From a virus, in IMG/VR virus record IMGVR_UViG_3300046507_000222, positions 1 to 39,821 of that record: a stretch of DNA of 39,821 bases. The stretch is one strand, 5' to 3'. Below are positions 9,002 through 37,119 of the stretch, one piece after another (position 1 is the stretch's first letter; each line of letters begins with the position of its first letter). Below the pieces are notes generated by a model that saw nothing but the letters and a program-made list of their open reading frames with translations, did no database searches and was not told the DNA's origin. A program made the position numbers and the translations under genes.

Positions 9002-10113
9002 TACCAGAGGCCCGCTTTCTTCAGCTTGGTTTCCAAATACGCCACCCGTTCAAGCAGCATATTTACCTTATCCACGACGAGATTCCCGTTGTCGTCCTCG
9101 CTGACCAGATCGGCGGCGAACTTCTGGACCGTCTGCGCAATGACACCCCGTCCGCTACCCTTGCCCTTCTACCGCCAGTCCCACGTCGCTACCGGAATGC
9201 CGGAAAGGTCGCGAGGCTCGGCGTACTTGATGTTTTTCTTCAGCCGTACGTCTGAGGTATATGTGAAGTCGGCGGCAGAGATTACGCCCGTGAAATCGGC
9301 AGATCCTGACGCGTTGACGTTAAAAGCAACGCTGCTGTCCGTGGAACCCTTAGGACGGATTGTGACAAATCCACCACCACCAGCGGCGACGATGCAGAAT
9401 GCGCCAGTGGCACGCATGGCGCCACCGTTGGGGATGTTGATGTTGCCACCGACAGTCATGTCACCAGACGAGGCAATGGATGTCTGGCCGGTCGTGGAGC
9501 CACCATTGGGGCGGATGGACACCAGGCCAGAAGCGGCAGCGCACTGAAGGACAAGGACGGTAGGTGCGCCCGTGAAGGTGCCCGCCGTGGAAGTAACCGC
9601 CGTAGCTCCCGTGACACCGGCCGAGGCGCTGATCGAGCCGGTCACGCTGAGGGAGCCAGTCATGGAGTCACCCGCCTTGTTGACGGCGACGTACCCGAAG
9701 GGATTGGAGGTGATCTGCTTCCAGTTGCCCGAACCGAGACTACGGAAGGTCAGGATATCGCCCGCAGCCGTCGTGTAATTGCCGCCCGCACCACCGCCAA
9801 GGACGATAGCGGCGGAGTTGGTGATGACAAGGATGCCGGTAAAGGTTACTTCTCGTACGATGCCAGCTGGGGCCGTGCCGAAGCTGGTGATAGTCGTCGT
9901 GCCGGTGACCGTGACAGCCTCGCCATCGGACTATCCGAGGTCGGTCGTCGACCCGCTGGCGATGGTTGCCGACGAGATAGCGTTAGTGGAGCGTACAATG
10001 GCCTAGATGGCTCGCATGTAGTCATCAAGACTGTTGCCGATAGCGTCGGAGCCTGCCGGGCTATTGCTAGCCGGAAGGGTGAACAGGTCGGCCATTTTAG
10101 ACGGGACAGGCAT
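9001..10113 (-). CDS. tail fibre/spike with S74 intramolecular chaperone (3 TAG)
   Basis: 370 codons with a good ribosome site (GAGGG). N-terminal half is Ser/Thr/Gly-rich fibre sequence, followed by repeated beta segments (GSTTGQTSIASSGD..., VTIRPKGS). The C-terminal S74 domain begins SDVRLKKN, with catalytic Ser at about 287 and Lys at 292; it trimerises the fibre and cuts itself off. It ends with a coiled coil (VNMLLERVAYLETKL). TAGs at codons 37, 61 and 315 (10003-10005, 9931-9933, 9169-9171). The last sits inside the S74 domain after WDWR, so without TAG decoding the chaperone would be truncated. Ends in TAA. Confidence 0.85.
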
Positions 10114-10114
10114 T

Positions 10115-10330
10115 GTGGACCCTCAAAATATCTTCTTGCGCGTGTTCTTGGGATTCCTCATCGCGCCAGTCATGGCGATCCTTTTTTATGGGACCGCACG
10201 GCTGATAGCAATGGGCGTGGCTAGGTGGATGCCAGAGTCAGCGCTGAAGCGACGACTATTGACCGATACCGAGAGCGGAAGACTGGCCTACAAGCCCCGA
10301 GGCCGAGGCCGCGACATCCGCAAGGGCTGA
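10115..10330 (+). CDS. small membrane protein on the opposite strand
   Basis: 71 residues from GTG (weak ribosome site, AGG four bases upstream). One clear transmembrane helix (FLRVFLGFLIAPVMAILFYG) followed by a second amphipathic segment and a basic tail (KPRGRGRDIRKG). It fills the 124-base gap between two minus-strand genes and overlaps the 3' end of the ejection-protein gene antisense. Real-looking but with no visible plus-strand promoter. An alternative in this gap is a 16-codon minus-strand ORF (10123-10173) with a strong ribosome site. Confidence 0.5.
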   Translation: MDPQNIFLRVFLGFLIAPVMAILFYGTARLIAMGVARWMPESALKRRLLTDTESGRLAYKPRGRGRDIRKG

Positions 10331-12163: not shown

Positions 12164-13563
12164 AGGCCAAGTCCAAGGGGATCTTTCGCGTTGAGGTCAA
12201 TCGTGCCGCCTCCGGTCTGCGCAGGAGCCGTGTGCCCAGCGCTTCCGGATAGCTTTCCGAATGTTGCCGCTGCCTTCGGCGTGACGACCTGAAGGCTCTT
12301 GGAGCCATAACCCAGGGACTGGTTGGCCTGCTCCTGAAGCGCGCCAAGACGGCTCTGTACGAGTTCGGCATAGGTCTGAAGGGACGCGCGGAGCTGGGCG
12401 TTTGGCTGGGACGGGTCAAGTCCGTGCGCAATCTCTTGGCGATCACCGAGGGCACTCTGCCCGCCAGCGAAAACCTTGGCCGCCTCGTCGCCGACTGCCT
12501 TGGCTGCCGTCGTATAGGTGCCGAGGGTGGCCGCACGCTGCGAATTGCCGTGAGCTGCCGAGAAGTTGGCCGCCTTGTTGACTAGGCTGAAATCGCTGTT
12601 ATCGAGCTTATCCAGCGATTCGTTAAGCGTCGAAAGGTGACCGGCAAGCGTGTTCAGTGCCTTGACCTGTTCGCCTATCTTGCCTGAAGTAAACGCCTGA
12701 CGGGCCGCCGCACGCGATTTGTAAGTACCCGCGTCAAGCGTAGGGTCCACCTGATTCGCGACGGCTATCAGTCGCTGCCAATTCGGGTCCATCGCCTGCT
12801 TGCCCGTAGGCACGGGGTAACGACCATCGAGGATGGCATGCACCGTGGCCTTGTCGGAGGCAGGGAGCGAGTCAAGCGCCTGTGGCCCGGCGACGTCTGG
12901 AGCAGCGGCTTTCCCACCAATGCCCAACTGCGCACGAATATCATCATCCGTCGCCCCGTATTGCTTGAGTAGGGCAATGCGCTGGGCAACTGCTGAACTA
13001 CCACCGCCACCGCCACCGTTCGCCTGCCAGCGCGGGGCCTGCGCAATCGTCTTCCACTGCCCGTCAGCACTCTGCTCCTGCGTCAGGATGTTGCTACCGC
13101 TATTGAGTTCGCGGGTCTGCGGCGTACTAAGGTCGCGCTGCGCCTTCTGGCTCTGCAAGTCGACGAGTTTGCTGCGAAGTTCGTTCTGATGAAGTTCCAT
13201 CGCAGCCTGCGGGTCGAACTGGGCCAATGCTGACTGGTAGCCAGGCATATCGAACGTGCCATCGGGCTTTGCGAACTTCAGGGCCAGAGCCTGAATCTGC
13301 TGGCGACGCTGGGTCTGCTGCTGCTGGTCGTCCATCTGTTGCTGCTGGAACCGCTGCTTGACCAACTGCTGGCCGCCTTGCTGGGCAGACTGGATACCGC
13401 CAAGAAGGCCGCTAGCCAAAGCCGCACCCGGGCTAACCTGCCGCGAGTTGTTCGCTGCGAGTGCCTACAATCCAGCCTAAAGAAGGCCACCGCGTGCAAG
13501 CTGGTTTTTGTCTTCGTCAGATAGACCGGGCTGCGTTCCGGTGAAGATATCCTGCCATGCCAT
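12160..13563 (-). CDS. probable internal virion/ejection protein (2 TAG)
   Basis: 467 codons; ATG overlaps the stop of the upstream gene, and the end (TGA) overlaps the next GTG. TAGs at codons 29 and 33 (13477-13479, 13465-13467), so under the standard code the first 48 residues would be lost. Gln-rich coiled coil at residues 60-100 (FQQQQMDDQQQQTQRRQQIQ), then a long helical domain with a Gly-rich linker. Long, helical and Gln-rich proteins in this position of podoviral genomes are injected with DNA. Function inferred from position and composition. Confidence 0.7.
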
Positions 13564-13967
13564 TATCGAACGCTCCCGAGCAGTCCGGACATTGTGTTGC
13601 CTCCGATGTATCCGGCCCTCTATTGGTTAACCTGCCCTAGCGGGCCACCAGCGCGACCAGCCTGTTGCTGGTGCTGGAACTGCCCAGTCGGGAGTGTCGG
13701 CTTGGTCGCCCCGTATGAATCCTGAAGTATCTTCTGCCAGTCTTGGCCTTGCTGCGGCTGTCCAGGGTATTGGTTCTGCTGAAGCGCCCACTGCCCGATC
13801 TTGGAGAAGTCCAGGCCCTGCGTGGCTGGCGATTGTGCCTAGCCGCCGCCGAGAATTTTGCTGTAATCCGTAGTCGGCTGGAACTGCTGATACTGCTGCA
13901 TCGATGCCCCCGCCTAAGCGTTGGCGTTGGGTGCGGACATGCCGGAAAGAAAATCGAAGGTGCCCAT
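13563..13967 (-). CDS. hypothetical virion protein, Gln-rich (3 TAG)
   Basis: 134 codons with TAGs at codons 18, 43 and 116 (13914-13916, 13839-13841, 13620-13622) and a TAA end that overlaps the next ATG. Sequence is Gln/Gly/Pro-rich (MQQYQQFQ, QNQYPGQPQQGQDW). Without amber decoding only 17 residues would be made. Continuous frame with compositional coherence on both sides of every TAG supports a single gene. Function unknown; likely a minor structural or ejection protein. Confidence 0.65.
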
Positions 13968-13976
13968 ATGTCCGCC

Positions 13977-14915
13977 TTAGAGGTAGTAGGAGCCCGCGCC
14001 AATGACGCCGCCAGCTACGGCACCCCATGGACCGAACATGCTTCCGGCAGCAGCACCAGCGCCCGCTGAGGCGAGAGCTCCGCCGGCTGTTTTCGGCTGG
14101 TAGGCGGGGTTTGCGCCGGTAGTGGATGAGCCCTGAAAAGAGCCGGAGACGGCATTAAGCGCGTTGCCGTAGTTGTTGATCTTCTGCTGGTCGTAGCCGT
14201 AATTCTTCTGATACCAGTCGTTATAAGCCTGATTAATGTCGCCCTGCGCCTTGTCCTGATAGCCTTGACCGATACCAGCCAACTGACTGTTGTACTGAGC
14301 CTACAAGGCACCCGCACCGTTGAGTGCGTTGGATGCACCGAGGATGTTCTGCGTGTTGTTCTGTGATGCGGCTAGCTGGTTCTGGAAGCCCTGCTGCCAA
14401 CGGTTCGCCTGATCGTTGTAGTCCTGATAGCGCAGGTTGTCGGTGTTCGTTGCAAGGCTCTGTGCGAGCTGCTACTGGCTGGCCGTGGATGCCTGCTGCA
14501 TCGCCGAGCCGCCGAACGCGCCGCCCTATGCGAACTGGGTCGGTAGCTGGACGCCAGCACCACGCAGATACGAGTCGGTAATATCCCGATTGGAGTCGTT
14601 GACGACCGAGTTCAGATACTGGTTCTGGCCTGCGTAGGGGCTAGCGCTTGCCTGTACGTTCTGGTTGCCTCCCAGCACGCCATATAGTGCGTTGTACTGG
14701 TTGCCGTTGCCGCCCGCACCATAGATGGCGTTCGTAGACGCCTGCGCCTGCTGGTTCGAAGGATTAGCGTTGAGCGCGCCGTTGTACGACTGGTACGGCT
14801 TAGCGTTCTGTTCATTAGTCGACCCAATGAACTACTGATAGTCTTTGGCGAGCCAATCCGGGATCTTCGTCTCGGTGGTCGTCGTGGTGTTCTTCGGTTG
14901 TCCGCCGCCGCCCAT
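13977..14915 (-). CDS. probable ejection or tail-assembly protein (4 TAG)
   Basis: 312 codons, ATG to TAA. TAGs at codons 28, 130, 148 and 205 (14832-14834, 14526-14528, 14472-14474, 14301-14303). Asn/Gln/Tyr-rich middle (QNQYLNSVVND, DYNDQANRWQQ) and a C-terminal glycine zipper (ASAGAGAAAGSMFGPWGAVAG) that can insert in a membrane. This architecture is frequent in internal proteins of podoviruses. Glutamine at codon 28 gives KDYQQFIG. Function inferred. Confidence 0.7.
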
Positions 14916-14916
14916 A

Positions 14917-15345
14917 TTAGACCTCGTACCAAGTGGTGATTTTCTTGTATTTCGCCGTCCAGCCTTCTTGGGGGCTGGAGAAGACGACGCGTTCAATCCC
15001 GGCCTCGTTGGCAACCTGTCGGGCACATTCTGCACCGAGGTGGCCGCTGGATTTCTCCACCGAGTAGCCAATCCATACGTTGAGTACGGGGCTGTCTTCG
15101 TACGGGAATGTGATGGCCTGGAGAACGGCGAATCCCGTGTAAGCGCCGTTTCGATAGCCGACGTACAGCGATGCATTGCCGGTCGTCAGCGCGGTGTAGA
15201 TATCCTCGGGAATCCAAGGCTCGACATTCGTGCCCTTAACCTTCTGGATGCCCGGAAGGATGACCGGCCAAATCTGGCGAACGTTGCCGACATGGTTGTA
15301 GGCAATCGAGCCGTCTGCGGTAACGCCTGAAATAGGAGGAAGCAT
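14917..15345 (-). CDS. GNAT-like acyltransferase-fold phage protein
   Basis: 142 codons without TAG; ATG overlaps the upstream TAA. Beta strands (YVGYRNGAYTGFAVLQ, VLNVWIGYSV) are followed by a helix in the position of the GNAT acceptor (GHLGAECARQVANEAGIERVVFSS). A similar small protein is common between tail and ejection genes in podoviruses. The acyl-CoA-binding loop is not clear, so it may be structural rather than enzymatic. Confidence 0.6.
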   Translation of the reverse strand: MLPPISGVTADGSIAYNHVGNVRQIWPVILPGIQKVKGTNVEPWIPEDIYTALTTGNASLYVGYRNGAYTGFAVLQAITFPYEDSPVLNVWIGYSVEKSSGHLGAECARQVANEAGIERVVFSSPQEGWTAKYKKITTWYEV

Positions 15346-15650
15346 TAGTTACCTGTCAGTGTGCGGACGGGGAGCCATGTGCCGGGGGTTCCCGCCACAG
15401 TGCAACGCCATCCGTGGATAAGGTATTTCGACCCTGCCGTACCCAGCTCTGCCGGGGCCGAGTTGAGTACGAAGTCGCCCACAGCATTAAGACCCTGCGT
15501 TGGAATCGTCGGCTGTGCGTTGTAGACCGCTGCGGCCCTACCCTCGGTGAGCAAGTTGACCTGCACGGCCGTGAGGCGATACAGGTCAGACAGGCGCAGG
15601 ACAAGCTACTGCGTATCGCCGGGTAGCGTGGGGTTCTGTTGCAGCTTCAT
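15345..15650 (-). CDS. hypothetical structural protein (1 TAG)
   Basis: 101 codons, ATG overlapping the upstream TGA, TAA end overlapping the next ATG. TAG at codon 15 (15606-15608) in GDTQ-TAG-LVLRL; glutamine gives a natural helix. Only 14 residues would be made otherwise. The second half is Gly/Ala/Pro-rich with YLIHGWRCTVAG. Likely a head-tail joining component by position. Confidence 0.65.
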
Positions 15651-17101
15651 TCGGGGGTCGTCGGCATGATGGAGGGCGTTCCGCCGTTGATGACCACCGT
15701 ACTCGGCCAGTCCATGCGCAGTCGATGCCAGCGGGCGTCACGGTGGAAGTCGAAGCGACCACGAGACTGCGCGATGGTCGAATCCTGCACAGGGGACGCG
15801 CCGAAGTCATAGCGGTAGTAATTCGTGGCCTGAGCCGTGGCGGGCTGGACCCGATAACGCGGGGTATAGCGGTCGAATAGGGAGAAATTCGTCTCGTCGC
15901 CCATGTCGCCTGTCACGATGTACGAAGCCCCCGGTACGCCCGTCAGACTGTAGAGCTTGTGGTCCGTTGAGATAACGCCTGGAACCGTGTTATCGGCGAT
16001 CCAGAACGGCGAGTCATAGGCGATGTTTGGCAGGTTGTCGTATGTGCTGTAGAGCGTGCCAAGGCCATCGTAGGTGACGTTGCCCGACGAGTACTGAATG
16101 ACCGCCTCGATGGAGCGGGCAAACTTGCCCCACTGGTTCGTGCGGATATTGTACACCACGCACAAATCGCAGATGCCTGACGATGCAGTGCTGGGAAAGT
16201 ACCAGTAAACGAGGTCGCGGGTGAGGTCGGCACCGCCCTTGATGTTCTACCGCTGCTGCCCGTTGAGATTAGAGAAGAACCATTCGCGAATGGGCGCACC
16301 GATAGAGCGGGGCACTGTTCCGTCGTACACGAAGAAGTCAGACGGACCCACAAAGAAATGGGATGCCTGGACGACTACGACCGCCTCCTGACCGGAGCAG
16401 CCGATATCACCGGGGATGCGCTGCCACTGCCAGATAAGAGGCGGCCCAACGTACTGCCCCCGATACATCGACTTCTCCTTGTAGGCCACCACATCCGCAC
16501 CGAACTCGCGGGCTGCGGTAATGGGACCAGGAGAGTCCACGAGGCGAGCATTGGCTGCCTGAGAGCCTACAGTGGGCGTCCAGGCTGTCTGGTCGAACAA
16601 GTTCGAACACCACCACCCGTCAGGCTGGTCACCGTAGCTTCCCGCCTGGTCGGACCAGTTGAAGGCAAGGACGAAGTTGGACGCCGAACACACGATGGCC
16701 GCCAGCGGTGCCGTGGCAATGTCCGCGAACGACCCTGAAGGTGCCGCCTGCTGGATACGCTGGGCACGGTTGGTCGCGATGATGTTGCTACCGAACATGG
16801 TGAAGCGCCACGGGGCGAGTCCGGTATAGCCACCCACCTTACTGCGATCAGTCCATGCGCCGCCCGCGATGTCCCAGAGCTTGGCCTACGTACCCGCTAC
16901 AACGCGCTTAGTGCCATCCAGAAGCGTCCCGACATAAGCGCCCTTGCATGAGCTATCGAGAGCGGCCAGCCCGGCGTCCACGAGACTATTTCCCGCAGAG
17001 AACCCCTTGGTCGTCGGGATGATGTTGTCGCAATCCACGATGACGCCTGGCGTTGCCGGGTCGAGGTCGGGGCAGAAGCCGATGAAAGGAATGGCACTCA
17101 T
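15647..17101 (-). CDS. P22 gp10-like packaged-DNA stabilisation/tail protein (2 TAG)
   Basis: 484 codons, ATG to TGA, coupled on both sides. TAGs at codons 72 and 285 (16886-16888, 16247-16249). Beta-propeller-like repeats with motifs seen in the gp10 family: WRFTMFGSNIIATN, VLAFNWSD, ARLVDSPGPITAAREFG, SMYRGQYVGPPLIWQWQRI and FFVGPSDFFVYDG. In P22 gp10 is a tail accessory factor that closes the portal after packaging. The three standard-code pieces match consecutive parts of one family protein, which argues strongly that TAG is translated. Confidence 0.75.
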
Positions 17102-17700
17102 GCGGTGATGAAGTCCACACGGGGGCGAGGCGACGGACCATAGCGAAGCATGTCGTCGTTCTTCTTCATGGCAGCCAGTGCTGTCTGGTAGCCCTGACCG
17201 AATAGCGCCGTGCGCTGGTCATCGCGAAGATATATGCACGCCTCCAGAAGCGTGCCGTAGAGGTACATCTGCGGCTGGGCAAGAATGAGCCAATTCTGCG
17301 GTGCGGCGTCCGAAAGGCTGGGGATGTAGCTGTAGTAGAACAGCCGATAATCCGTGTCAGCAGCGCCCACGATGTTAATAACGCCGTTGACCATCGTGTA
17401 GCCGATGGGGATGACGAAAAGCTCCGCATTCGTGTCCTGAATCGGCGGCATAGGATAAAGCTCTCTCTCAACCCCCTCAAGACTGACGATAAGAGCCTGC
17501 ACCTGCCGAAATCCAGCAGGAGGGGTGATGACGCCACCCACGGACGTCCCCGCAACCATCATCTGCTGCGGAGAAAGGCGCAAGTCGTTGTTCATCCTGG
17601 CCTCGGCAAGCTGGATGAAATCCGGGATTACACCGGCAAGGTCAGCACGCGCAAGGAACTACGCGACTTTTGCCTGTAGGGTCGAAAAGTCGTTAATCAT
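17098..17700 (-). CDS. head-tail adaptor protein, gp4-like (1 TAG)
   Basis: 200 codons, ATG to TGA overlapping the next ATG. TAG at codon 14 (17659-17661) in QAKVA-TAG-FLARAD; with glutamine the N-terminus reads as the usual start of podoviral adaptors: a helix, then a DLAGVIPDFIQLAEARMNND segment. Hydrophobic C-terminal domain with LEACIYLRDDQRTALFGQGY. Adaptors dock below the portal. Neighbours (portal, capsid, gp10-like) agree. Confidence 0.75.
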
Positions 17701-17703
17701 TGC

Positions 17704-17991
17704 TTAAACCTTTCCCTGCCAAATGCGGAAAGCGGCGAACTCGGAGGAATTCATGATTCGCTTAAGGTGTACGGGGTTCACTTCGAACTCGTGTAGCGTA
17801 ATTCCGTAGTCGTTGATGTACTTCTCCACGAAGACCATCGGCAGGCGCATAGCGTGCTTCATTTCGGCCGACCCCGTCGCTCCAATGGACCGCAAATTGG
17901 CACACGACTCAAGAACCGGCTCGATGTCCTGAACCCGGTTCTACGTCATGTCGTCGCCATCGAAGGCAACGCGTGTCTGGATCAGCCCCAC
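17704..17991 (-). CDS. hypothetical head-completion-type protein (1 TAG)
   Basis: 95 codons. GTG at 17991 chosen because the frame is open only from there and it overlaps the upstream gene; no other start precedes the TAG at codon 17 (17941-17943). N-terminus VGLIQTRVAFDGDDMTxNRVQDIEP, then ALRLPMVFVEKY-like hydrophobic segment (MRLPMVFVEKYINDYG). Similar small proteins precede adaptors in podoviral head modules. Ends in TAA. Function uncertain. Confidence 0.6.
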
Positions 17992-18290
17992 TCGACTGGC
18001 ACCACATTTACCGTACCGGCTGCCGTGTCCTGAATGACCGCGAACACGTCGTAGTTCTGCACGCAAAGCACGACGGCATCACTGGGCATCAGAAGAAGGT
18101 CGTTTGCCGTAGCGACAGCCGTTGTCTTGTTGAATCGGATGTGCGCGGCAACCGTAGCGGCAACACGAACGTACTTGGCAACCACGCCCGCCGAGTTGAC
18201 CGGGATGGCTGTCTGTGCCGATGCAGCACCGGATGCCACGGTAACGCCGGGCATATCGATGTTGAGGCACGCCATAGGGGTTCGGAACAT
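17982..18290 (-). CDS. hypothetical small virion protein
   Basis: 102 codons without TAG. ATG at 18290 chosen for the GGGAG ribosome site seven bases upstream, rather than the longer frame. Ala/Val-rich beta sequence (GVTVASGAASAQTAIPV, AVVLCVQNYDVFAVI) resembles small capsid decoration or fibre-like proteins that follow the major capsid gene. Ends TGA. Confidence 0.6.
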   Translation of the reverse strand: MFRTPMACLNIDMPGVTVASGAASAQTAIPVNSAGVVAKYVRVAATVAAHIRFNKTTAVATANDLLLMPSDAVVLCVQNYDVFAVIQDTAAGTVNVVPVEWG

Positions 18291-18309
18291 TGGACTACTC
18301 CCAAGGGAA

Positions 18310-18327
18310 GGCCCCCTTTCGGGGGCC
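18310..18327. other. perfect 7-bp stem-loop between capsid and next gene
   Basis: GGCCCCC-TTTC-GGGGGCC, perfect inverted repeat just downstream of the capsid stop on the minus strand. No T-run follows, so it is more likely an mRNA-stability or attenuation hairpin than a strong terminator, letting capsid mRNA outnumber downstream messages. Confidence 0.6.
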
Positions 18328-18344
18328 AACCACATTGCAGGTTA

Positions 18345-19280
18345 TTACGTGAGGTCGCGAATCACGGCGTGGGCCAGATAATTGTCCATCTGGAGACCGT
18401 ACTCCCAGGTAATCAACATCTTTTCCGCATCACCCGTCTTCGCCAGCGGTTTGGCCTCGACGTTACGAAGCGTCTTGAAGCTGACGTGATCGTAATCGAT
18501 GAGGTAGGCAGCAGCGTCGATGAAGCGATCCGGGACGACCTTCAGCGAACCGAAGTCGGTCACGTACACGTCATACGCAGCGTGGAGCTTGTTGCTATCT
18601 GCCTGTTCGAAGCGGGTAGCGTTGCCCGTGAAGCTGGACACGATCACCTTGTCGGACGGACGGACAAGCAACTGCGACGGAGCGCCACCAGCCGTATAGG
18701 CCGTCTGCATCGCCGACTTGACCAGGGCCTCAGACAGCGCCCGGGCCGTACCGGCAACCGGAGCCGTGTTGGTCGACGGGACCGGGAACACGCCAGCACC
18801 AGCGCCTACGGAACCCTGCGTGATCCAGCCAGCAAGGCCGCGCGTCTGACGAGCCACGGTCGTGGAACCCGCGTTGAACGTGGTGTTCTGGACAAGGCCA
18901 GTCTCCGCGTCGCGCTTCAGTTCCTTGAGCTTCTTCGACTTCTGGTAGGCGATTTCCGACTTTCGGCCCGCCTTGTCGACCACTTCCTCAGTGTCGGAAA
19001 TGATGAAGTTCTTCGTGGACACCTGGCAGTAGTTGCCCCAGCGGGTCGACGGGGTGACGGCCGTGAAGCTGGCAACGTCGTCGCCTTCAAGCTGGGCGTT
19101 GTTGGCCGCAGCGGCAAGGGCATCCGTCTGCCATTCGAAGAATCGGGCGTTGGCCTTGGACTTCTTGAGCGCCGAGTAGAACGGGGTGTCGGTCGGCGAA
19201 ATCATGTCGATCACGTCCGACAGGTCTTCACGCTAGCCGATAGCGGCGTAGGTGGTGAAGGTATTGGCAACAATGGTCAT
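18345..19280 (-). CDS. SU10-like major capsid protein (1 TAG)
   Basis: 311 codons, ATG to TAA. The N-terminus TYAAIG-TAG-REDLSDVIDMISPTDTPF matches the conserved G-x-REDLSDVI...P-x-x-TPF start of the SU10/DUF5309 capsid family with TAG at codon 16 (19233-19235) replacing one residue. The rest has the HK97-fold features of that family: RWGNYCQVSTKNFIISDT, KSKKLKELKRDAETGLVQN, and the C-terminal DYDHVSFKTLRNV. Because the TAG is at codon 16, no capsid can be made without amber decoding. Confidence 0.9.
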
Positions 19281-19293
19281 TTACTAATCCTCG

Positions 19294-20310
19294 TTATTTG
19301 GAGCGAGCCAGCAAGAAAGCGGCTACATCGTCAACGTTGCCGGTGCGTCGTGCGCGTTTGGCAAGGTCGTCAGCACGCTTCTGCTGCGGGGTGTTTGTTG
19401 GGGTATTGGCGTTGCCTGCCTGGACCGCCTTGGGCGGGGTTTTGGCCTGCACTACCTGCTTCTGCTTAACTGCCTGTGCGCGATCCCACATGGCCGCCTT
19501 GTGGGCGATGAGGACGGCACGATGGTCGATGAGGTCACTCAGTTCGTCGGGGCTATAACCCTGCGCTACGAGGAAGTCGGCAACTTCGCGTTGTGCCGCT
19601 GCTCGTTTCGTCTGGTCACGCCACTCAGGCAACTTATCAAGCAGCCTTTCCTCGTTCTCGCGGAGAGATTCGTCGCGGGCTTTAGCCGCTTCGTTCTTCT
19701 TCATCTGCTCGATGGCGGAATGGTGGTGCTGGATCTCGTTGAGGCGTGCCGATTTGGACGCCATTTCCTGCTGTTTTGCGACCCATGCCGCTGGATCGCT
19801 CTGAGCTAGCTCGGCAAGTTTCGCTTGGTCCCCTACAAGCTCCTGATAGAGCACGCTACCCAAGACCTGAAGCTGGTTGATACGGCTCTCGTATTCCTGC
19901 TTCACGAACTGGCGTTCTTGCGTGATCTGCGAGGTTAGCTGTGCAGCTTCCTGCGTCTTGCGGGTGTAATCCTGCTGCCGCATGTAGCCCTTGAAGGCTT
20001 CGTCGACAGAAACTTCCAGTTCCTCACCCTGGACGGTGATTTTCTTCGTTTTGGTCAGCCATTCGTCTTCCTTGGCCTTGGCTGCTGCGGTTTCCTTTTC
20101 CTCGGGCGTGCTCCCGTCGTCTTCCTCCGCTTCGGGCTGCTCCTGTTCCGGGGCTTCATCAGCCTCGGCCTCGGGTTCGTCAGCCGTAGGAGGTGTTTCC
20201 TACTCGTCTTCGGGGTACTTCGGCTCAAGTCGCTTCAGAATTTCGTCTTCCGTCATGCCCTGCGAAGGTTCAATGGCGGTGTTTTCGACTTCCCCAGTGG
20301 GATTGGTCAT
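19294..20310 (-). CDS. scaffolding protein (1 TAG)
   Basis: 338 codons, ATG to TAA, directly before the capsid gene. Acidic N-terminal region (EEDDGSTPEEKETAAA) followed by ITVQGEELEVSVDEAFKGYMRQQDYTRKTQE, which is a recurrent start of phage scaffold proteins, then a long coiled coil and a basic C-terminus (QQKRADDLAKRARRTG) suited to binding capsid protein. TAG at codon 37 (20200-20202) in PEDE-TAG-ETPP. Confidence 0.85.
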
Positions 20311-20365
20311 GGTTTGTTGTTCCAAGTTGTTGAAAGTGTTCCGTTGCGGGAATCCCCGTAGCGGA

Positions 20366-20524
20366 TCAGGGTGAAATTGTGGTCCCGTCGCTTAACAGAA
20401 CCTTCCAGTTGCCTCTATCTACCGGCGCCCCTGAGTACGTCCCAGTCCACACAGGCTGGCATTCAAAGGGGACCGTGATGCGACACACGGTGCGTGGCCT
20501 GACAACGCACTCAAGGCCGCTCAG
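20366..20524 (-). CDS. hypothetical small protein, start uncertain
   Basis: About 52 codons if it begins at a CTG overlapping the previous TGA, or 40 from the GTG at 20488. The sequence RITVPFECQPVWTG and GNWKVLLSDGTTISP looks like a genuine small beta protein. Ends TGA. It sits between the 96-residue protein and the scaffold gene. Confidence 0.4.
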   Translation of the reverse strand: MSGLECVVRPRTVCRITVPFECQPVWTGTYSGAPVDRGNWKVLLSDGTTISP

Positions 20525-20811
20525 AACGCTACAGAGGCTCGGCCAATTGCCTGGGCCGCGCGCATCTTCAGGGTGGCCTCCGCCATCTTCCCCGACTCGA
20601 TCAACGACGACAGGTGCGCTTGCACTCTCTCGGACGCCTTCAGCATCAGGTACAACTTTTCGCGGCCTTCCACGTCCCTTGCCGGTGACTTTGCCCATCG
20701 TTCCTGTACCTCGTTAGCGAATGTGGCGAATGCTTCGGCGATTAGCGGCTCGGCGAGTAGCTGGGCGGCCTTCTGCCCGCGCTGGATTTCGGCTTCCATG
20801 AGGTCGGTCAT
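20521..20811 (-). CDS. hypothetical helical head-module protein
   Basis: 96 codons without TAG; start overlaps the portal stop (TCATG). Entirely helical and Ala/Glu-rich (QKAAQLLAEPLIAEAFATFANEV). Similar-sized helical proteins are found between portal and scaffold in podoviruses with unknown function. Ends TGA. Confidence 0.65.
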   Translation of the reverse strand: MTDLMEAEIQRGQKAAQLLAEPLIAEAFATFANEVQERWAKSPARDVEGREKLYLMLKASERVQAHLSSLIESGKMAEATLKMRAAQAIGRASVAF

Positions 20812-23033
20812 TCGCGAGACTCCTGGTAATTGGCATCCGCGTCAGCCGTGGACGGGTCTTTTGCACCCATGGTCTTGGCGGACAGAATCTTCGCCTCGGC
20901 ATTGATGCGGGCGATACGCTCGGCGGAGGCGAGCTTCATGGCCTCGATGCGTTCGGCAGAGGCGACGTCCATTTCTGCCTTCTGCATCGACAACTGAGCG
21001 TCAAGCTGCGCCTTCTCTCGGGCTACCTGAATCGCACTCTCGGCCTGCATCTGGTTGCGCTGGGCCTCAAGCTGTGTTTCCTGCTGCGACTGCTGGGCCT
21101 GAAACTCCTGCTTCATGCGCTCAACTTCGACGTCGCCCTGTTGCTTCTGCTGCTGAAGCTGGCCCTGCTGTTGAAGCTCGGCCATCTTCGCCTGAGACTC
21201 GGCTTGCACCTTAGCCATGGCCGGATCGGGCTTGTCCTGCTGCTGAGGGCCTTCGCCGGGAGCAGTGAAGTATCGACCTACGTCCTTCTTGCCCATCGCT
21301 GCCAGGAGGTCTTCCAGGCTGCTGTAGGCGTTCTGAGGCTGCACGAGTCCGTACTGAGCGGCCTGCTGCTGGATCTGGAGCAGCATCATGGCGTTCTGGA
21401 TCTGCTTGGCCTTGCTCGACGTGCCGATGCCGATGGATACGGACATCGAGTAGTTGTTCTTCCACGCCCGGGGATCGACGGCCATCCAGTTACCGTTAAC
21501 CTTGATCTGAGCCTCACGGTCCTGATACTAGGTCGCGTTCTTGAGCAGCAGCTTATACACGCGGCTGATGAACGTCTCGGCGATGACACGGGCGATCAGT
21601 TCCAGGCGCTGGTCAGCCTGGTCCTGAAGCGTTGCCACACCCTCTGAGCCAATCTGCGACTTGGACAGTTCCTCTCCAACGAGGCCCTGCGAGAACTGTC
21701 TGATGCCGGTACGGTTGTCGCGCACGGAGTCGAAATAGTTGATGCCAGCCTGAGCGTTCGGACCAATGTCGGTCGTGGTCAGCTCACGGATGGCGTCTGG
21801 ATTCTCGGCACGGATGATGCCGCCCGGTCGCGGATTGAGCAGGTCGTCAAGATTGACCTGACCGGCCACCACGACCTTCTGCGGGTTGTTCGCCAGATAC
21901 AGGTTGTCGAGGTACTGACGGGTTACGGCCGTCTTGATCCGCTGGATGTCCTCGGTCAGATCCCACATGCTCAAGCCAATGAGCTTGTACGGCATGAGGT
22001 TGGGGCAGCACAGGGCAAACTCGTGGTCGTCGACGATCTCGTTTTCGAAGATCACCGTACCCGCCTTGACGATGCGGCGGTATTCGGCAATGCCGTCACC
22101 ATCAGCGTCGACCCGGATGTATACGAGCTGGAGCGTTACGACACGCTGGCTCGGGTCCGGTGAATCATCGTCCTCGGACACCGTGAAGCTGCCATCGTAA
22201 GACTCGCGCTCCATGCGCTCGCCGTACGTGTCGCCATCGTCGTCACCCGTTGGGATCTCGGCCACCTTGTCCGCGTCGTAGCCCATCGAGATCAGGTCGG
22301 ATACGGTGCGCTCGGTGTTCTGGCCCACGCAGCGAAGCTTTTCTATGTCGCGGCTGTCCTTGCTGAACCAGACTTCCTCAGGCGGCACGCCCTCGACCAC
22401 GATATTGTGCTGCTTGGTCTTGCGCTTGGCCGTGACGTTGAAGTACGGCTGCTGCGGGGCTACCTGCTGGCCCATCTGGCTGATTGCGACATCGACAGGC
22501 ATAACCTGATCCTGTTTGACAATCTCGATATTCTCGTCCACCGAGAGAGCCTGGACATCCTGTTCCGACAGGTATTCGTAATGTTCCTCGCGCTCGTCCC
22601 ACGCTTCCTCGCAGTAGACCTTGACCACGCCCATACGGGAGATCAGGGCCGACTTGATGGCGTCGTGCAGGACCGTGAAGCCCTAGTTCTTGCGGAACAG
22701 CATCCAGCCGCAGTATTCGGTGGCGTCGCTGGCGCTCTTCTCGTCCTCGGGGCCTTCCGCCTCAAAGCGGATCACATCGTCGGCCCCGCAGAACATGCGC
22801 ATCAGCGATGGCATGGCGGATTCGACGACCTCAAGCAGATCCTTGCTGACGACCTTTGATCGGCCATCGACGTCAGGCGGGGTCAGCTCGTAAGATGCCT
22901 CGCCGAGGTAGTACGCCATAGCCCGCGTACGGTCGGACGACAGCTAATCCGCATAGCCGATACCGTTCTCCCGCTCGTGGTCGATGAGCGCGCAAAGCTC
23001 GCGGTCGCTCATCTTCTTGGATTTCTCTGCCAT
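20808..23033 (-). CDS. portal protein (3 TAG)
   Basis: 741 codons, ATG to TGA. TAGs at codons 30, 117 and 502 (22944-22946, 22683-22685, 21528-21530). Portal-family features: RTRAMAYYLGE near the start, HYEYLSEQDVQAL, FALCCPNLMPYKLIGLSMWDLTEDIQRIKTA, NRTGIRQFSQGL and, after codon 502, VNGNWMAVDPRAWKNN, a conserved block of the same family. Therefore the ORFs on the two sides of the TAG are parts of one protein. A Gln-rich coiled coil closes the C-terminus, as in P22-like portals. The protein forms the dodecameric channel for DNA entry. Confidence 0.9.
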
Positions 23034-24286
23034 TAAGCGGTCGCCAGTGTCTTGTAAGTCAGTTTGCCGCCCCAGTCCTCGTTAGAGAGCTTCGGGGCGA
23101 CGACGTGTAGGTAGCGGAAGGCATCGGCACCGTGGCTGAACTGGTCGTGCAGTGGAGCGCCAGGCTCACCCGTGGACATGGGCAGGGCACGCCTGTAACG
23201 CTTCAGGCACTCGACGAGAGGTCCGGCCTTGGTCTTGTCGAAGTAGACCTGCCCGAACTGCCTACGGGCCAGACGGATGCCTTCCTCGATGCCGAGCTTG
23301 GGAACGATCGATACCTTCCAGCCAAGCTCCTGCATGATTTCCTGCGATGACTTGCCGGTCTTGAAGTCCCGGTTCTCGCCATCGTGCGGTAGCCAGATCG
23401 TGCCCCAGTTGTGCTTCCGGGTCTTAAGCTCCGTCGAGTACCAATCCAGCGTCTTGTGGTTGCCCTCGATGTACTCGATCACACGAAGCTGGCTCAAGTG
23501 CTTCTGCACGAGGATGAGCGTCATCTGGTCGTTCCAGCCAAGGTCGAACACCACATGGACCTTCATGGCCGGATCGTATGGAACGTCACAGATGCGGCTA
23601 GGCGTGGCTTCCTTGGCACTGGCTATCTCGTCGGCGTAGATCGCACCGGAGACGGCGGGCAAGCAGATGCCTTCCCATGTGTGGTCGTACTCGGCCTTGG
23701 GCAACATTTCCTTGTCGCGAAGCCGCTCAGCCTCAAGGATGCCGTTGAACCAAGGGTTATCCGAGTAGTTCATCTTCACGACGAACGAGTCTTCGGGAGC
23801 GTTCTCCACGAAGCGCACATACGTCGGGTCGGTATCCAGTTCCGGGTTGAACGTGATCCAGACTTCGGAGCCGTCCTTGCGGATGGTCGGGATCAGGATC
23901 TTCCAGCTACGCTCCGTAATGGCCTGAGCTTCCTCGCACCACACGATGTCCACGCCCTCATAGGACTTCACGGACTCGGCAGTCTGGTCACTCAGGCCAG
24001 CGAAGGTAATCTCCGTGCCATTCAGGCCCTTGATGACCGTCGCCTGGACTTCGTAGAACGCGCTAAGCCCCATGGCAGCGATCTGGTCGCCTAGGAGCTT
24101 GTGTACGGAGTCCTTGATAGACTTCTGGATCTCTCGGGTGCAGAGGACGCGCAGTGGCCGCTCAGCGCCCTACAGGAGTAATGCGCGGGCGTAACCCCAG
24201 GACTTGCCGGAGCCTCGCCCGCCGTATGCCACCTTGTAGCGTGCCGGAGTGAACAGGCCCTCAAGTTTGTCAGGGAACTCGATCAT
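23033..24286 (-). CDS. terL: terminase large subunit (1 TAG)
   Basis: 417 codons, ATG to TAA. Walker A YGGRGSGKS at residues 21-29, then ARALLL-TAG-GAERPLRVLCTREIQ with the TAG at codon 39 (24170-24172). Walker B is VDIVWCEEAQ, the coupling motif follows (WITFNPE), and the nuclease acidic residues are in VFDLGWND and HGADAFRY. PBSX-family terminase, which pumps DNA into the prohead and cuts it. A standard-code start could only give a protein lacking Walker A. It overlaps the small subunit by 17 bases. Confidence 0.95.
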
Positions 24287-24548
24287 GCTCAGCCTTGACG
24301 AACGAGATTGTCAGGCCCGTCATCAACGGGTTGCCCGGATCGCCGGATACCTGAGTGGGTAGAACCTTGCCGAGCAGCGTCATGAAGGCAGCAGGTGATG
24401 ACTCGGCCTAAGCCACGAGGTATTCAACGCCGCCCTTCTTGTCGAGGGCGGCGAGGATCATTTCCTTGAGCGTTGCCGTCACTTTGTTGGGCGTGCCAAC
24501 TTGGCGACCGCCTCGACGCTCACCCGGTTTTGCTCCTTTCCCAGCCAT
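24270..24548 (-). CDS. terS: terminase small subunit (1 TAG)
   Basis: 92 codons with GGGAAAGGAGC in the coding start; ATG at 24548, TGA at 24270. N-terminus GERRGGRQVGTPNKVTATL and the C-terminal SPAAFMTLLGKVLPTQVSG are family hallmarks of phage DNA-binding terminase subunits. They lie on the two sides of a TAG at codon 47 (24408-24410): VEYLVA-TAG-AESSPAAF. Homologues commonly have Gln in this position (LxxQAxExP), supporting TAG as Gln. Confidence 0.85.
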
Positions 24549-24935: not shown

Positions 24936-25336
24936 TGCGGTTCCTCAATAGTTGGCCACCAGTCTTGGGTGACCTATTCGCCAGTGTCGGCGTTGATGTA
25001 GATCGGAGTTCTGCCCGCACTATCTGGCTCGTACGCGGCAGGACGTTCGATAGAGCCACCTGTGACGAAAGATGAAGGCGGGAAGGCCCTGTCCCATGAA
25101 GCATCGTATTTGGCGGGGGAGTCCAGAGACGATCTGGAACCTTCTGGGTTAGAGCCAGAAATGCTGCCGGTTACACCACTCCCCACTAAACCTTCCAGCC
25201 TCAAGCTGTCCGCATAGTTCTGCTTACGGACGCTTGTGTAGTAATCCTTCTTGGCGGCGAAGATCCGCTCCCAGTTATCCGAGAACGTCTGTTCGTCGAC
25301 GCTTGCAGGACGACGGTCATCGCCCTTACCGCTCAT
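24932..25336 (-). CDS. hypothetical protein, extended by 14 codons through a TAG
   Basis: 134 codons. TAG at codon 121 (24974-24976) follows ADTGE; reading on gives VTQDWWPTIEEPQ and a TGA that overlaps the ATG of the next gene, exactly the 4-base junction seen elsewhere. The N-terminal part is hydrophilic with FSDNWERIFAAKKDYY. If TAG were the stop, a 38-base gap would interrupt a tightly packed operon. Function unknown. Confidence 0.7.
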
Positions 25337-25756: not shown

Positions 25757-25987
25757 TTATTCCTCGGTTTTGTTGTATTTGCCCCATCCGCAGATGACCT
25801 TGCCGGTCTCGTCATGCGTAAGGATCTGTTTGGCCGTGCCATCAGTCAGCACGTCGTCTTGGGATACATAGATGGGCTTGGCCCACTCACAGCCGTTAGT
25901 CACGACTCCAGTTGTCGCGCAACCTGCCAGAAGCAGAGTCGGAAGGAGCATCGCGTACAGGTGCAGTCGGAGCGGACGGCAGGTCAT
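25757..25987 (-). CDS. outer-membrane spanin (Rz1-like lipoprotein)
   Basis: 76 codons, starting inside the inner spanin in another frame, as in lambda Rz/Rz1. Lipobox LLAGC at about residues 19-23 gives an acylated mature protein that would sit in the outer membrane. The mature part is longer and less Pro-rich than lambda Rz1, with two further cysteines. Acts with the Rz-like partner to disrupt the outer membrane in the last step of lysis. No TAG. Confidence 0.75.
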   Translation of the reverse strand: MTCRPLRLHLYAMLLPTLLLAGCATTGVVTNGCEWAKPIYVSQDDVLTDGTAKQILTHDETGKVICGWGKYNKTEE

Positions 25988-26153
25988 TTACGGTGTCCTC
26001 GATCTTGTCTCTCTGCTTACGATGCTTGGCTACAACCTTCTCGGCCTTGTGAGCCTGGGCCTGTCGCTCGCTAGTCGCACCGGAGTGATGAACCCATAGC
26101 AGACTGGCACCCCACAGAAGAACGATGCCTAGGGCCGCGTAGACGTATCTCAT
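25896..26153 (-). CDS. inner-membrane spanin (Rz-like)
   Basis: 85 codons. N-terminal signal-anchor helix (YAALGIVLLWGASLLWV), then a charged periplasmic coiled coil (AHKAEKVVAKHRKQRDKI) and a Pro-rich end. Embedded Rz1-like gene in the other frame and the lysis neighbourhood support the call. Short for an Rz. No TAG; TAA end. Confidence 0.75.
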   Translation of the reverse strand: MRYVYAALGIVLLWGASLLWVHHSGATSERQAQAHKAEKVVAKHRKQRDKIEDTVNDLPSAPTAPVRDAPSDSASGRLRDNWSRD

Positions 26154-26245
26154 TCGTCACCCTTGCCGAAGTAAATGCGCAGCGCCAGGAGGCAGGCGGC
26201 TAGTAGTAGGCCGAGGCTGATCCAGTCACTGATGACCTTTGACAT
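26150..26245 (-). CDS. 31-residue membrane peptide in the lysis cluster
   Basis: ATG at 26245 overlaps the protease end, TGA overlaps the spanin ATG. One transmembrane helix (ISLGLLLAACLLALRIYFG) with a charged end. Could be an antiholin or a lysis regulator; function unproven. Confidence 0.55.
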   Translation of the reverse strand: MSKVISDWISLGLLLAACLLALRIYFGKGDE

Positions 26246-26849
26246 ATCCGACCTCTGCATACTGCGCATCGGTGAAGGTGATCGGGATAGACCCCATAAG
26301 CTTGAACTGGATGCCGCTGTAGTTGACTACGACGGCGTAGCTGGTCACTGCCGAGATCTCGCCTTCCGTGTTGAAAATGGCGGAACCAGAATCACCCATA
26401 TAGCCATTGACATCGTAGATCGTCGTGACCTTGCCTTCCTTGTCGTCATACCCAGCCACATGGCCTTCGCGATACAGGAAGTTCAGGAATGCGGGCTGGC
26501 CCCACAGGAACACCACATCGCCAGGCTTGGCCTCTTTGCCGATATGCGCCCACGAGGTGAACGTGGTATCCACGACCAGCATCGTGTGGTCGTTGCCGTC
26601 ATCAATCTGCTTCTAGACCTTGGCGTCCTTACCGTTGACCGTCAGGGCCTGCATCCCGACAAAGCAGTGTGTCGCCGAGAGGATGAGGTGCGGGCCGATA
26701 GCCGTACCGCTGCACATCCCGTTGCCGTCCATTTCAAGCCGCAGGGCGACCGCTCGACTTCGTGTAAGCAGTTCGTCTCGCGGCGAATGCGTTGCGCACC
26801 CTACCGCAGCCAAGACAAGGACGAGGTAGAACAGTGCGCGAGTTTTCAC
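26226..26849 (-). CDS. secreted trypsin-like serine protease, predicted lipoprotein (1 TAG)
   Basis: 207 codons from GTG, TGA end. Signal peptide with lipobox AAVGC, then S1-peptidase features: His61 in LSATHC, Asp94 in LVVDTT and Ser154 in GDSGSA. TAG at codon 79 (26613-26615) lies between His and Asp, so standard translation yields an inactive piece. It lies between the endolysin and spanin genes. A periplasmic or envelope-anchored protease is unusual in a lysis cassette; it could cut envelope proteins during lysis or process a spanin. Which, is not known. Confidence 0.75.
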
Positions 26850-26858
26850 GTTACGGCC

Positions 26859-27062
26859 TCAACCCGGGAAATCCGGGGATTTCTTGGTGGCCACCGCTTC
26901 CGCGACGTTCGCTGAGAAGTAAAGGCCGAGTACCCATGTGGTGTAGGTCACCCACTGAGCCGAATCAATTTGGTGGAAGACAAGTAAGGCGAGCGCGATC
27001 AGATACGCAGCTACAGCCATCTTCAACTTGCTTCGAATGAACCAGTCAGTCACGAAATACAC
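26859..27062 (-). CDS. small membrane protein, holin-like
   Basis: 67 codons from GTG, overlapping the endolysin end. Two hydrophobic helices (MAVAAYLIALALLVFHQ, YTTWVLGLYFSANVAEAV) and a basic-to-acidic tail. Candidate second holin or antiholin next to endolysin; no TAG. Internal GTG nine bases on could be the true start. Confidence 0.6.
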   Translation of the reverse strand: MYFVTDWFIRSKLKMAVAAYLIALALLVFHQIDSAQWVTYTTWVLGLYFSANVAEAVATKKSPDFPG

Positions 27063-27514
27063 AACCGATATTCAGCATTTCGGCGATTTACTAAACCCTG
27101 GATCTTGCGGCCGCCTGCGTAGACCCACAGGAGGATGGCCTTGCATGATCCCAACTTGTCCCCGGCATTGGCCTTGCGTGCTGCCGTAGATCCGCAGAAA
27201 GCGCTTACGCCGATATTGAAGGCGAGGCTGGTGTAGCTGGCTGCCTGAGGCACGGTCATAGGGGCGGTAACACACCCGAGAACCCCCTAGGCCGCTGTCG
27301 TGATATCGCGCTTGAACCACTTGTCGCACTGGTACTGGTCGTAGACCTTACCGAGAACGACCTCAGGGCCTGTATGCCCCGTGCAGGCCGTTGTAACCCC
27401 TACAACGTCCGAGTAGCCGACGTACTCAGTCCCTTCCCATGGCTGAGTGAAGGCTGCGGCTGCGGCGACTACGGCGGCCATGAAGCCAGCTAGGAAGCGA
27501 GGATTAGCCTTCAC
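27050..27514 (-). CDS. SAR endolysin, GH24 lysozyme type (1 TAG)
   Basis: 154 codons from GTG overlapping the holin end; TGA stop. Ala-rich weak transmembrane N-terminus (FLAGFMAAVVAAAAAF) is a signal-arrest-release segment. The lysozyme active site follows directly: Glu27 (WEGTEY), Asp36 (SDVVG) and Thr42 (VTTACTGHT). TAG at codon 76 (27287-27289) lies after RDITTAA; the downstream part (ASYTSLAFNIGVSAFCGSTAARKAN) is the conserved C-terminal lobe of this family. The enzyme cuts peptidoglycan after membrane depolarisation by the holin. Confidence 0.85.
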
Positions 27515-27695
27515 GCTTCCTGTCCCGGATCGGCTTGATGACCTTCGTCCAGATGAAATTGCAGATCATCAGGCAGGTATAAATACTCGCCACGATGTAA
27601 CTAAACGTATCCCACTACCAACCGGCCAATGAAGTTCCTACGAATCCTACGACCGGGGTTAACTTAACCGCATCGGCGATGTGTTCAGCCTGCAT
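27504..27695 (-). CDS. class II holin (1 TAG)
   Basis: 63 codons, ATG to TAA. Two transmembrane regions: roughly residues 10-25 (LTPVVGFVGTSLAG) and 32-50 (YIVASIYTCLMICNFIW), with a basic C-terminus (KPIRDRKREG). TAG at codon 27 (27615-27617) between the helices: AGW-TAG-WDTFSY. Overlaps the endolysin start. Truncation at the TAG would leave one helix only. Confidence 0.75.
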
Positions 27696-27714: not shown

Positions 27715-28146
27715 TTATACGGCGATGGAGCGCACTGCTCCACCAGAGTAGATGTCGAGCTTGGTGGCGATCCTCACGGACTCGGCAGCGGTCTTACCTG
27801 CCAGCATCGCGCCCATGGCGAAGTCGCTACCCGATCCGATGGCGTAAGCACCACGGAATTCGGAAGGAATCATGGAGTCGGATTCGATCCGATACCCCCT
27901 GCGTTTACCCACGAAGATGGCACAAGCCGTGTCCTCGGTATCCGAGGTGATCCCCTGGAACTCGCCCGCCTCGATCTATGACTGCATGACCATGATCGTC
28001 GAGACTCGGCCGCACCCTGCGAAGACATACCCCGCATATGGCCCCTTGGTGATCCGGTGGACCTTTACCGCATCGAATCGCTTAAAACTCGTCGTGCACT
28101 GACTGTCTGCCGCAACCACTCCATCTTTCGTTGCAACAGTGGTCAC
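27715..28146 (-). CDS. HslV/proteasome-like Ntn peptidase (1 TAG)
   Basis: 143 codons from GTG, TAA end. After removal of the initiator the N-terminus is TTVATKDGVVAADSQ, the start of HslV and proteasome beta subunits with a catalytic Thr1. Further signatures: VKVHRI (Lys33 equivalent), AYAIGSGSDFAMGAML and DIYSGGAV, matching the HslV C-terminal block. Short for HslV but complete in order. TAG at codon 57 (27976-27978) in MQS-TAG-IEAGEF. No partner ATPase in the window; may use host HslU or act as a virion protease. Family call is firm, role is not. Confidence 0.75.
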
Positions 28147-36388: not shown

Positions 36389-36453
36389 GAAATACCACGT
36401 TGCGTGATGCCAGTCAACACATAACGTGTGTGGAAGATATCACTTCCTGTGAT
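36389..36453. promoter_or_regulatory. right operator/promoter region, three repressor sites
   Basis: Three 15-bp palindromes of consensus AYCAC-N5-GTGRT: 36394-36408 (ACCACGTTGCGTGAT), 36417-36431 (weaker, ACACA-N5-TGTGT) and 36439-36453 (ATCACTTCCTGTGAT), centred 22-23 bp apart, two helical turns. The minus-strand pR has -35 TTGACT (36412-36417), 17-bp spacer and -10 TATTTC (36389-36394); the first site lies within the spacer. Same sites recur at the left operator. Confidence 0.75.
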
Positions 36454-36459
36454 TATCCT

Positions 36460-37119
36460 ATGCGTATGAATACGTTAGGTTATCGTCTTAAGGCAGCAAT
36501 CAAGAACCGGGGCACTACGCAGGCCGCCCTACAGGCTGAAATGGGCTGGGGCGAAGGCAACAGCCGGATCGGAAACTATGCGAGCGATAAGCGAGAGCCG
36601 TCGCTTGCCGATATTGAGCAGATGGCGAAGGCGTTAGGTGTTAGCAAGGAATGGCTCGCTTTCGATTCAGGCCAGATGAACTCGACGCCTACCGAAGAGA
36701 GCGTCATCCCGTTCCATCACGACATGCGCGCATCGGCTGGACCAGGCGCGTACAACGACGCTGGAGTCAGCGAGAAGGGCCTTAAATTCCAGAACTGGTC
36801 GCTATCCAGGAGGAAGTTGTCGTCCAGCAACCTTCATGCATGGGTGGTGTCCGGGACGAGCATGGCACCTTACATACCCGACCGATCAACCATCGTGTTC
36901 GACGTCTCTGATAAGGAAGTCCATGACGGGTGTATCTACGTTATCAACTGGGGCGGCGATACCTTCGTGAAGCGGCTATACAAGGAACTCGATGGAAGGA
37001 TTCGCGTGGTAAGTGACAACGCATCTGATCCGTCCAACCGCGACCGGCTAACCGACCCAGAGGCAGACGGATTTATCGTTGAGGGTCGCGTTAGGTGGGT
37101 CGGATTCTGGCTTGACTAG
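36460..37119 (+). CDS. cI: CI-like repressor, LexA/S24 type
   Basis: 219 codons from the ATG at 36460 (36466 is also possible). N-terminal helix-turn-helix (TTQAALQAEMGWGEGNSRIGNY, ADIEQMAKALGVSKEWL), then an S24 autoprotease: cleavage site Ala93-Gly94 (ASAGPGA), nucleophile Ser134 (SGTSMAP) and Lys171 (FVKRL). It would repress pL and pR through the six operators and self-cleave under RecA. The stop is TAG, in contrast to the lytic genes. The following lipoprotein ATG lies in the same frame nine bases further, so amber readthrough would fuse the two. Confidence 0.9.
   Translation: MRMNTLGYRLKAAIKNRGTTQAALQAEMGWGEGNSRIGNYASDKREPSLADIEQMAKALGVSKEWLAFDSGQMNSTPTEESVIPFHHDMRASAGPGAYNDAGVSEKGLKFQNWSLSRRKLSSSNLHAWVVSGTSMAPYIPDRSTIVFDVSDKEVHDGCIYVINWGGDTFVKRLYKELDGRIRVVSDNASDPSNRDRLTDPEADGFIVEGRVRWVGFWLD

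Follow-up and report, generated by a model that had tools for sequence, protein, structure and literature searches.

Borges et al. 2022 (Nat Microbiol), as described in PMC10607447, PMC10746230, and PMC10879173, reported suppressor tRNAs, a TAG recoding that takes in late and lysis genes, and recoded prophages in hosts that use the standard code. The role proposed there is a block on premature production of late proteins, with a switch from lysogeny to lysis. A protective role for late-gene recoding is already a published hypothesis. For the crAss-like phages, PMC7886860 describes code switches at short evolutionary distances and the accumulation of TAG after a suppressor tRNA has been gained. 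The supply of suppressor tRNAs associated with theta ribozymes has likewise been proposed (PMC10879173) to trigger late and lysis translation.

The DNA analyzed here, called the window, is the whole IMG/VR record IMGVR_UViG_3300046507_000222, a stretch of 39,821 bases (Table 1). As in the code-15 phages (Borges et al. 2022), TAG is found in structural and lysis genes and a suppressor tRNA is encoded by the phage. Unlike the code-15 gut phages, the window and its relatives are small temperate SU10-like podophages, one of which resides in Dyella, a gammaproteobacterium. They also differ from the phages of Borges et al. 2022 in that their TAGs are few (about 4 to 50 in a genome), lie early in genes, and are retained at one per gene. 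The crAss-like phages share the location of TAG mostly in late genes, but their genomes are much larger, their hosts are Bacteroidota, and early placement is not reported in the accessible part of PMC7886860. In contrast to the theta-ribozyme tRNAs (PMC10879173), the tRNA of the window has no Rfam ribozyme match beside it and lies inside an open reading frame (ORF) of the late block. The lysis region is like a lambda/P21-type cassette in its gene set, in its overlapping spanins, and in the position of the lysis genes ahead of the terminase and head genes. It is unlike that cassette in having amber codons in the holin and endolysin and a secreted trypsin-like protease inside. No report of early placement, one-per-gene retention, or acceptor-end convergence was found in the literature searched, which included few subscription papers. 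Whether phages recode stop codons for regulation or through drift alone is an open question; in this group, close relatives carry zero, about four, about thirty, or about fifty TAGs in the same genes.

Among the gene products of the window are a portal and a major capsid protein of SU10 type, a terminase, a DnaB-like helicase, a RecE-like exonuclease, an SSB, and NinB- and RuvC-like proteins. It is read as a temperate SU10-like podophage-like virus. It possesses both an integrase and a repressor, and a lysogen was seen for a related Dyella prophage. The capsid and terminase proteins are less than 60% identical to those of any deposited phage, and no DNA match to a cultured phage relative was found. 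A 27-base tandem repeat, which encodes a Gly/Ser/Ala-rich repeat, is present at both ends of the record (1-231 and 39435-39821). The assembly therefore probably broke inside one repeat array, and the genome is probably circular or circularly permuted.

Table 1. Features of the window considered in the text, with their in-frame TAG codons and database matches.
Feature	Position	Strand	TAG codon	Match or remark
Tyrosine integrase domain	7333..7767, inside ORF 7243-8358	-		PF00589 E=1e-24
Virion and packaging genes	8510..24548	-	most with at least one (terminase 39; portal 30/117/502; scaffold 37; others)	
Major capsid protein	18345..19280	-	16 (19233-19235)	Pfam SU10_MCP
Amber-suppressor tRNA	25111..25185	-		anticodon CUA; unpaired U1.C72, G2:C71, G73; ARAGORN; Rfam tRNA 42.4 bits
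Rz1 outer spanin	25757..25987	-	none in window	overlaps Rz; phrog_1275
Rz inner spanin	25896..26153	-	none in window	phrog_1026
memb3, small membrane protein	26150..26269	-	none	
Secreted trypsin-like protease	26226..26849	-	79 (26613-26615)	phrog_9683, Pfam Trypsin_2
memb2, small membrane protein	26859..27062	-	none in window	
P21-type (SAR-like) endolysin	27050..27514	-	76 (27287-27289)	phrog_7, Pfam Phage_lysozyme, PDB 3hde
Holin	27504..27695	-	27 (27615-27617)	phrog_920 holin E=2e-11
HslV-like peptidase gene	27715..28146	-	57	just upstream of holin; phrog_1040
CI-like repressor	36400..37119	+	stop codon is TAG	HTH and Peptidase_S24 domain matches

Relatives were taken from scans of IMG/VR and GTDB genomes, and four kinds were distinguished. 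The window clade comprises nine genomes (the window and G001-G008) with 11-38 TAGs in the late genes scored, some of the records being fragments; the lysis region is present in eight of them. A second, heavier recoded clade (G009, G011, G012, G014, and L109) has 42-51 TAGs in each genome, and further heavily recoded records are L156-L158, L201, and L097. Lightly recoded phages (G015, L099, L103, L151, L153, and L100) have 2-5 TAGs in the genes scored. G010, G013, G016, L088, L104, and others are unrecoded. A host search with the portal protein against genome contigs gave no match, and a capsid alignment located the related Dyella prophage, L109, in Dyella sp. SG609. Its TAG sites are identical to those of G012. 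Dyella sp. SG609, seen here as the host of this prophage only, encodes RF1 (prfA), so UAG should be a stop there. This prophage in a sequenced strain offers a case that can be tested at the bench. Recoded phages are interspersed with standard ones in the capsid tree, where at least three changes are forced. L100 and L101 have identical capsid proteins; one of the two carries a TAG at codon 24 of the structural gene g17098, and the other has none in the genes present in its record. Judging by this pair, recoding may change over very short distances.

When TAG is read as a sense codon, the PHROG families for holin, endolysin, protease, and spanin are matched over most of the gene length. The holin, SAR-type lysozyme, and Rz/Rz1 pair of a lambda/P21-type cassette are all present. 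Residues 12-153 of the endolysin align to 3hde, a P21-type lysozyme, and this alignment together with the hydrophobic N-terminus suggests a SAR endolysin. The first-pass annotation had placed a single in-frame TAG in each of the holin, endolysin, and protease genes, before or between essential parts, and had considered the spanins and the second small membrane protein to be free of TAG. Both statements were borne out in the window, where the other small membrane protein also lacks TAG. Termination at these codons would take away most of each lysis protein. The holin would lose its second hydrophobic segment. The endolysin would keep the catalytic Glu/Asp/Thr segment and lose the remaining domain, and the protease would keep its His motif and lose the GDSGS Ser motif. 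From what is known of these folds and motifs, the truncated proteins are predicted to be inactive. The TAG of the HslV-like gene is found in the window only, among members of its clade; neither this TAG nor those in most of the downstream structural genes had been mentioned in the first-pass annotation.

The suppressor tRNA gene follows the lysis genes and precedes the terminase on the late strand. ARAGORN labels it "Pyl" from the anticodon alone, and it is taken here as a suppressor tRNA. It sits within ORF 24932-25336 (-). The N-terminus of this ORF is common to unrecoded relatives, and its TAG-bearing C-terminus (GE-TAG-V..DWWP and variants) is confined to the window clade. Nothing above chance was found in a search for a promoter or terminator at the tRNA. 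Beside it, no family of Rfam 15, which may not include the theta family, was matched up to E=1 other than tRNA. ARAGORN found a CUA tRNA in most recoded records covering the region and in none of the unrecoded ones. The Dyella prophage has a suppressor-tRNA-like stretch (about L109:4083-4153) with an odd T-arm that was missed by both ARAGORN and Rfam. Read by eye, it is cloverleaf-like, with the loop CUCUAAA and an acceptor end of U1.C72 and G73.

The suppressor tRNAs are built on several scaffolds. Besides the type in the window, there are a second 75-nt type (G001 and G005), an 87-90-nt type (G009 and G011), and a 94-nt type (G004 and G007) that is closest to host tRNA-Tyr. Those of L157 and L158 are closest to tRNA-Gln, and that of G015 is closest to tRNA-Glu/Gln. 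Unrelated scaffolds occupy one genomic place even among close relatives (L002-L007, L050, L090, L094, L153, L155, L157, and L012). In L007 a tRNA-Gln (TTG) gene (9358-9432) directly adjoins the suppressor tRNA. All 15 suppressor tRNAs found by ARAGORN have an unpaired 1:72 position (U.C, A.C, C.C, or C.U), G2:C71, and G73. A 1:72 pair that is neither G-C nor C-G, combined with G73 and G2:C71, is seen in tRNA-Gln only among the 33 Dyella tRNAs examined. The GlnRS of Escherichia coli reportedly reads nucleotides of the acceptor end and anticodon, including a weak 1:72 pair, G73, and U35, and an amber tRNA-Tyr is said to become glutamine-accepting through changes at the acceptor end. Thus, with one glutamine-type acceptor end on unrelated scaffolds, the suppressor tRNAs have likely converged on glutamine charging. 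The codons themselves agree with this amino acid. At TAG sites, unrecoded relatives most commonly have Gln (59), followed by Glu (23), and where members of the window clade lack TAG in a TAG column, Gln is by far the commonest residue. As in code 15, TAG exchanges with Gln in homologs and the phage encodes a CUA suppressor tRNA.

In the window, 39 TAG codons are found in late genes against 369 Gln codons, and one in early genes against 113 (Fisher p=0.001). The only early-gene TAG is a terminal TAG-TAA. This distribution is also that of code 15, in which many genes use in-frame TAG as a sense codon, other genes end in TAA or TGA, and TAG is concentrated in structural and lysis genes.

These observations suggest that the late genes are gated by the supply of the suppressor tRNA, with the virion genes locked first and the lysis genes as one lineage's share. 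We give this reading a probability of roughly 0.6. TAG would be a glutamine sense codon that only the phage's suppressor tRNA can read. In a lysogen and in early infection it would act as a stop. Late genes, and virion genes above all, would each carry at least one TAG, usually early, so that stray late mRNA would yield short, dead peptides. As late transcription rises, the suppressor tRNA would accumulate, presumably by co-transcription. It would be charged with glutamine by the host GlnRS and would then compete with RF1 for UAG codons. Holin, endolysin, protease, and the other late proteins would be produced as a result. Late output would depend on both late transcription and suppressor build-up. 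In the lineage of the window, the gate would extend to the lysis genes. The parts of this scheme that can be read from sequence are the TAG distribution, the tRNA, the match of TAG to Gln, the temperate genes, the early skew, and the retention with turnover. The scheme is plausible, and the relatives support it more strongly than the window does by itself. It is best taken as the mechanism of Borges et al. 2022, refined by early placement and by the retention of one TAG per gene.

The position of TAG within genes, in which the virion genes carry the stronger pattern, is the first of these features. In the window alone, the first TAG lies on average at 0.24 of gene length, against 0.40 when TAGs are redistributed at random over the Gln codons of their gene (p=0.0004). 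Across the window clade, 132 distinct TAG sites have a mean position of 0.380 against 0.505 (z=-6.1), and the skew persists past codon 20 (z=-6.5). Among the controls, CAA/CAG (z=-0.3) and TAT/TAC (0.2) are flat in the clade. TTG/CTG, which involves the same first-base C to T change, reaches z=-3.3 across the clade and 0.0 for the window taken by itself, with no skew in the light and moderate groups. A general AT-rich codon bias at 5' ends was considered as a cause and rejected, given the flat controls, a weak TTG/CTG skew limited to the window clade, and a TAG skew that extends beyond codon 20. The early placement is replicated in the light (0.13, z=-4.1), moderate (0.31, z=-5.3), and heavy (0.43, z=-2.6) groups, so that the fewer TAGs a phage has, the nearer they are to gene starts. 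The major capsid gene has the most conserved amber site of the group. Of 26 recoded rows, some of them near-duplicates, 22 have TAG at its codon 16, and ten other mostly-Gln capsid columns hold 5 TAGs in total. Recoded rows without this TAG have a capsid TAG elsewhere, at codon 75 in G004, 51 and 145 in L152, 35 in L155, and 63 in L097.

The second feature is the retention of TAG while its positions move. Over all 25 late genes of the window clade, 129 of 176 gene-genome cells have a TAG, against 117.3 +/- 2.5 expected from shuffling TAG columns across genomes within each gene. Taken singly, 20 genes lie above expectation and 0 below, and this per-gene test was significant. Shared ancestry makes these p-values too small, and weight is therefore placed on direction and consistency rather than on exact figures. 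The holin, endolysin, and protease have at least one TAG in all 24 copies from the eight genomes, or 24 covered cells against 21.1 +/- 1.1 (p=0.0095). The holin TAG is at codon 27 in seven of eight; G003 has CAA at codon 27 and TAG at codon 2. The endolysin TAG is at codon 76 or 72 in 8/8 members, and that of the protease is at 79, 83, or 164, also in 8/8. Among the small genes, memb2 has TAG at codon 14 in 3/8 members, Rz1 has TAG in 2/8, and Rz in 0/8. The first-pass annotation would have counted random replacement of TAG positions in close relatives as a refutation, a test that misses its target. The sites do move, while presence in the three lysis genes is kept throughout the window clade, a combination that favors selection for a stop and not for a site. 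In the window alone, the spread of TAG-bearing genes did not differ significantly from an all-codon null (p=0.12-0.19), and a pooled test of whether a gene that has lost its main TAG carries a further one fell short of significance (p=0.11). No excess in one-per-gene coverage was found in the second recoded clade.

These two features bear on neutral recoding under purifying selection, in which CAG drifts to TAG wherever it is tolerated once a suppressor has been gained. Late genes would tolerate TAG as the tRNA is present when they are expressed. Early placement could follow if short truncated products are cheap and harmless and long ones waste resources or poison assembly. Such an account fits the heavily recoded relatives, with their weak skew and lack of one-per-gene excess, the accumulation of TAG after suppressor gain described in PMC7886860, and the weak TTG/CTG skew of the window clade. 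However, it predicts no excess of TAG-bearing genes and no retention when sites move, and it predicts that the gene with the highest expression would avoid TAG, whereas the most conserved TAG is the one at capsid codon 16. The least recoded phages, moreover, have few TAGs, nearly all at gene starts. TAGs that are early, one per gene, and kept when sites move are a pattern not predicted by drift alone, and neutral recoding appears rather unlikely. Gating of late genes by suppressor supply has points against it as well, namely the lack of a TAG excess in lysis genes, the mostly TAG-free lysis genes of the second clade, the outcome of the pooled test, and the lack of a promoter signal at the tRNA. 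There would also be a lower yield for each TAG wherever suppression is incomplete.

The first-pass annotation had proposed a protective lock specific to lysis, with the TAGs of the holin, endolysin, and protease selected against lysis by leaky transcription of the prophage. A temperate phage, a suppressor tRNA, RF1 in Dyella, the retention of TAG in every window-clade copy of the three genes, and spanins that are almost always free of TAG are all compatible with this idea. The specificity is where it fails. The lysis genes of the window have 3 TAGs against 20 Gln codons, and the other late genes have 36 against 349 (p=0.47); no enrichment was found over the window clade either (p=0.17). With a density equal to that of other late genes, lysis is not singled out. 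The chance of a TAG in all three lysis genes is 0.04 if TAGs are spread over late Gln codons and 0.15 over all late codons, or 0.02-0.03 if all four small lysis genes must also be missed. This pattern was picked after the data were seen, so that one genome is weak evidence. The lysis TAGs also come later than those of virion genes, with the first TAG at a median of 0.41 against 0.15 of gene length (p=0.036). In most other recoded relatives the lock is absent. The lysis genes of the second clade are TAG-poor (2/34 Gln/TAG sites vs 132/510, p=0.007), and in three of four genomes every lysis gene scored is free of TAG. G015, which is lightly recoded, likewise has a TAG-free endolysin. The lock is therefore not general, and recoded phages of the SU10-like group can evidently live without amber codons in lysis genes. 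As an explanation of its own, it is very unlikely. That the window is a decayed prophage or sequencing artefact, with TAGs as plain nonsense mutations, is hardly credible, as nothing beyond the in-frame stops themselves speaks for it, domains of full length are recovered once TAG alone is read as sense and TAA and TGA are left as stops, the phage has a suppressor tRNA to match, and identical sites recur in independent contigs, which also rules out pseudogenes or assembly error.

TAG is the stop codon of the CI-like repressor gene in all eight genomes with a homolog (window 37117-37119 (+), G003, G004, G006, G007, G011, G014, and G016). These homologs are 30-36% identical to the repressor of the window. 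The stop is TGA or TAA in nearly all other early genes, and in the distant relative L237 the repressor ends in TGA. In the window, G006, G011, and G014, readthrough of the repressor TAG would join the repressor to the product of the lipoprotein-like gene that follows. The TAG also overlaps a Shine-Dalgarno-like sequence of the next gene, and this overlap may be the simpler reason for it. A further possibility, which we offer tentatively and consider somewhat unlikely, is that the amber codon is a selected, position-specific lock, with at least one placed early in every important late gene, virion genes first, and later diluted by drift. Suppressor build-up would then free the late proteins and also lengthen the repressor, so that the switch of code and the commitment to lysis would be linked. 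Another stop involving TAG is that of the phosphoesterase gene, which ends in a tandem TAG-TAA in the window (28465-28470 (-)) and in G002; relatives have a plain TAA or TGA.
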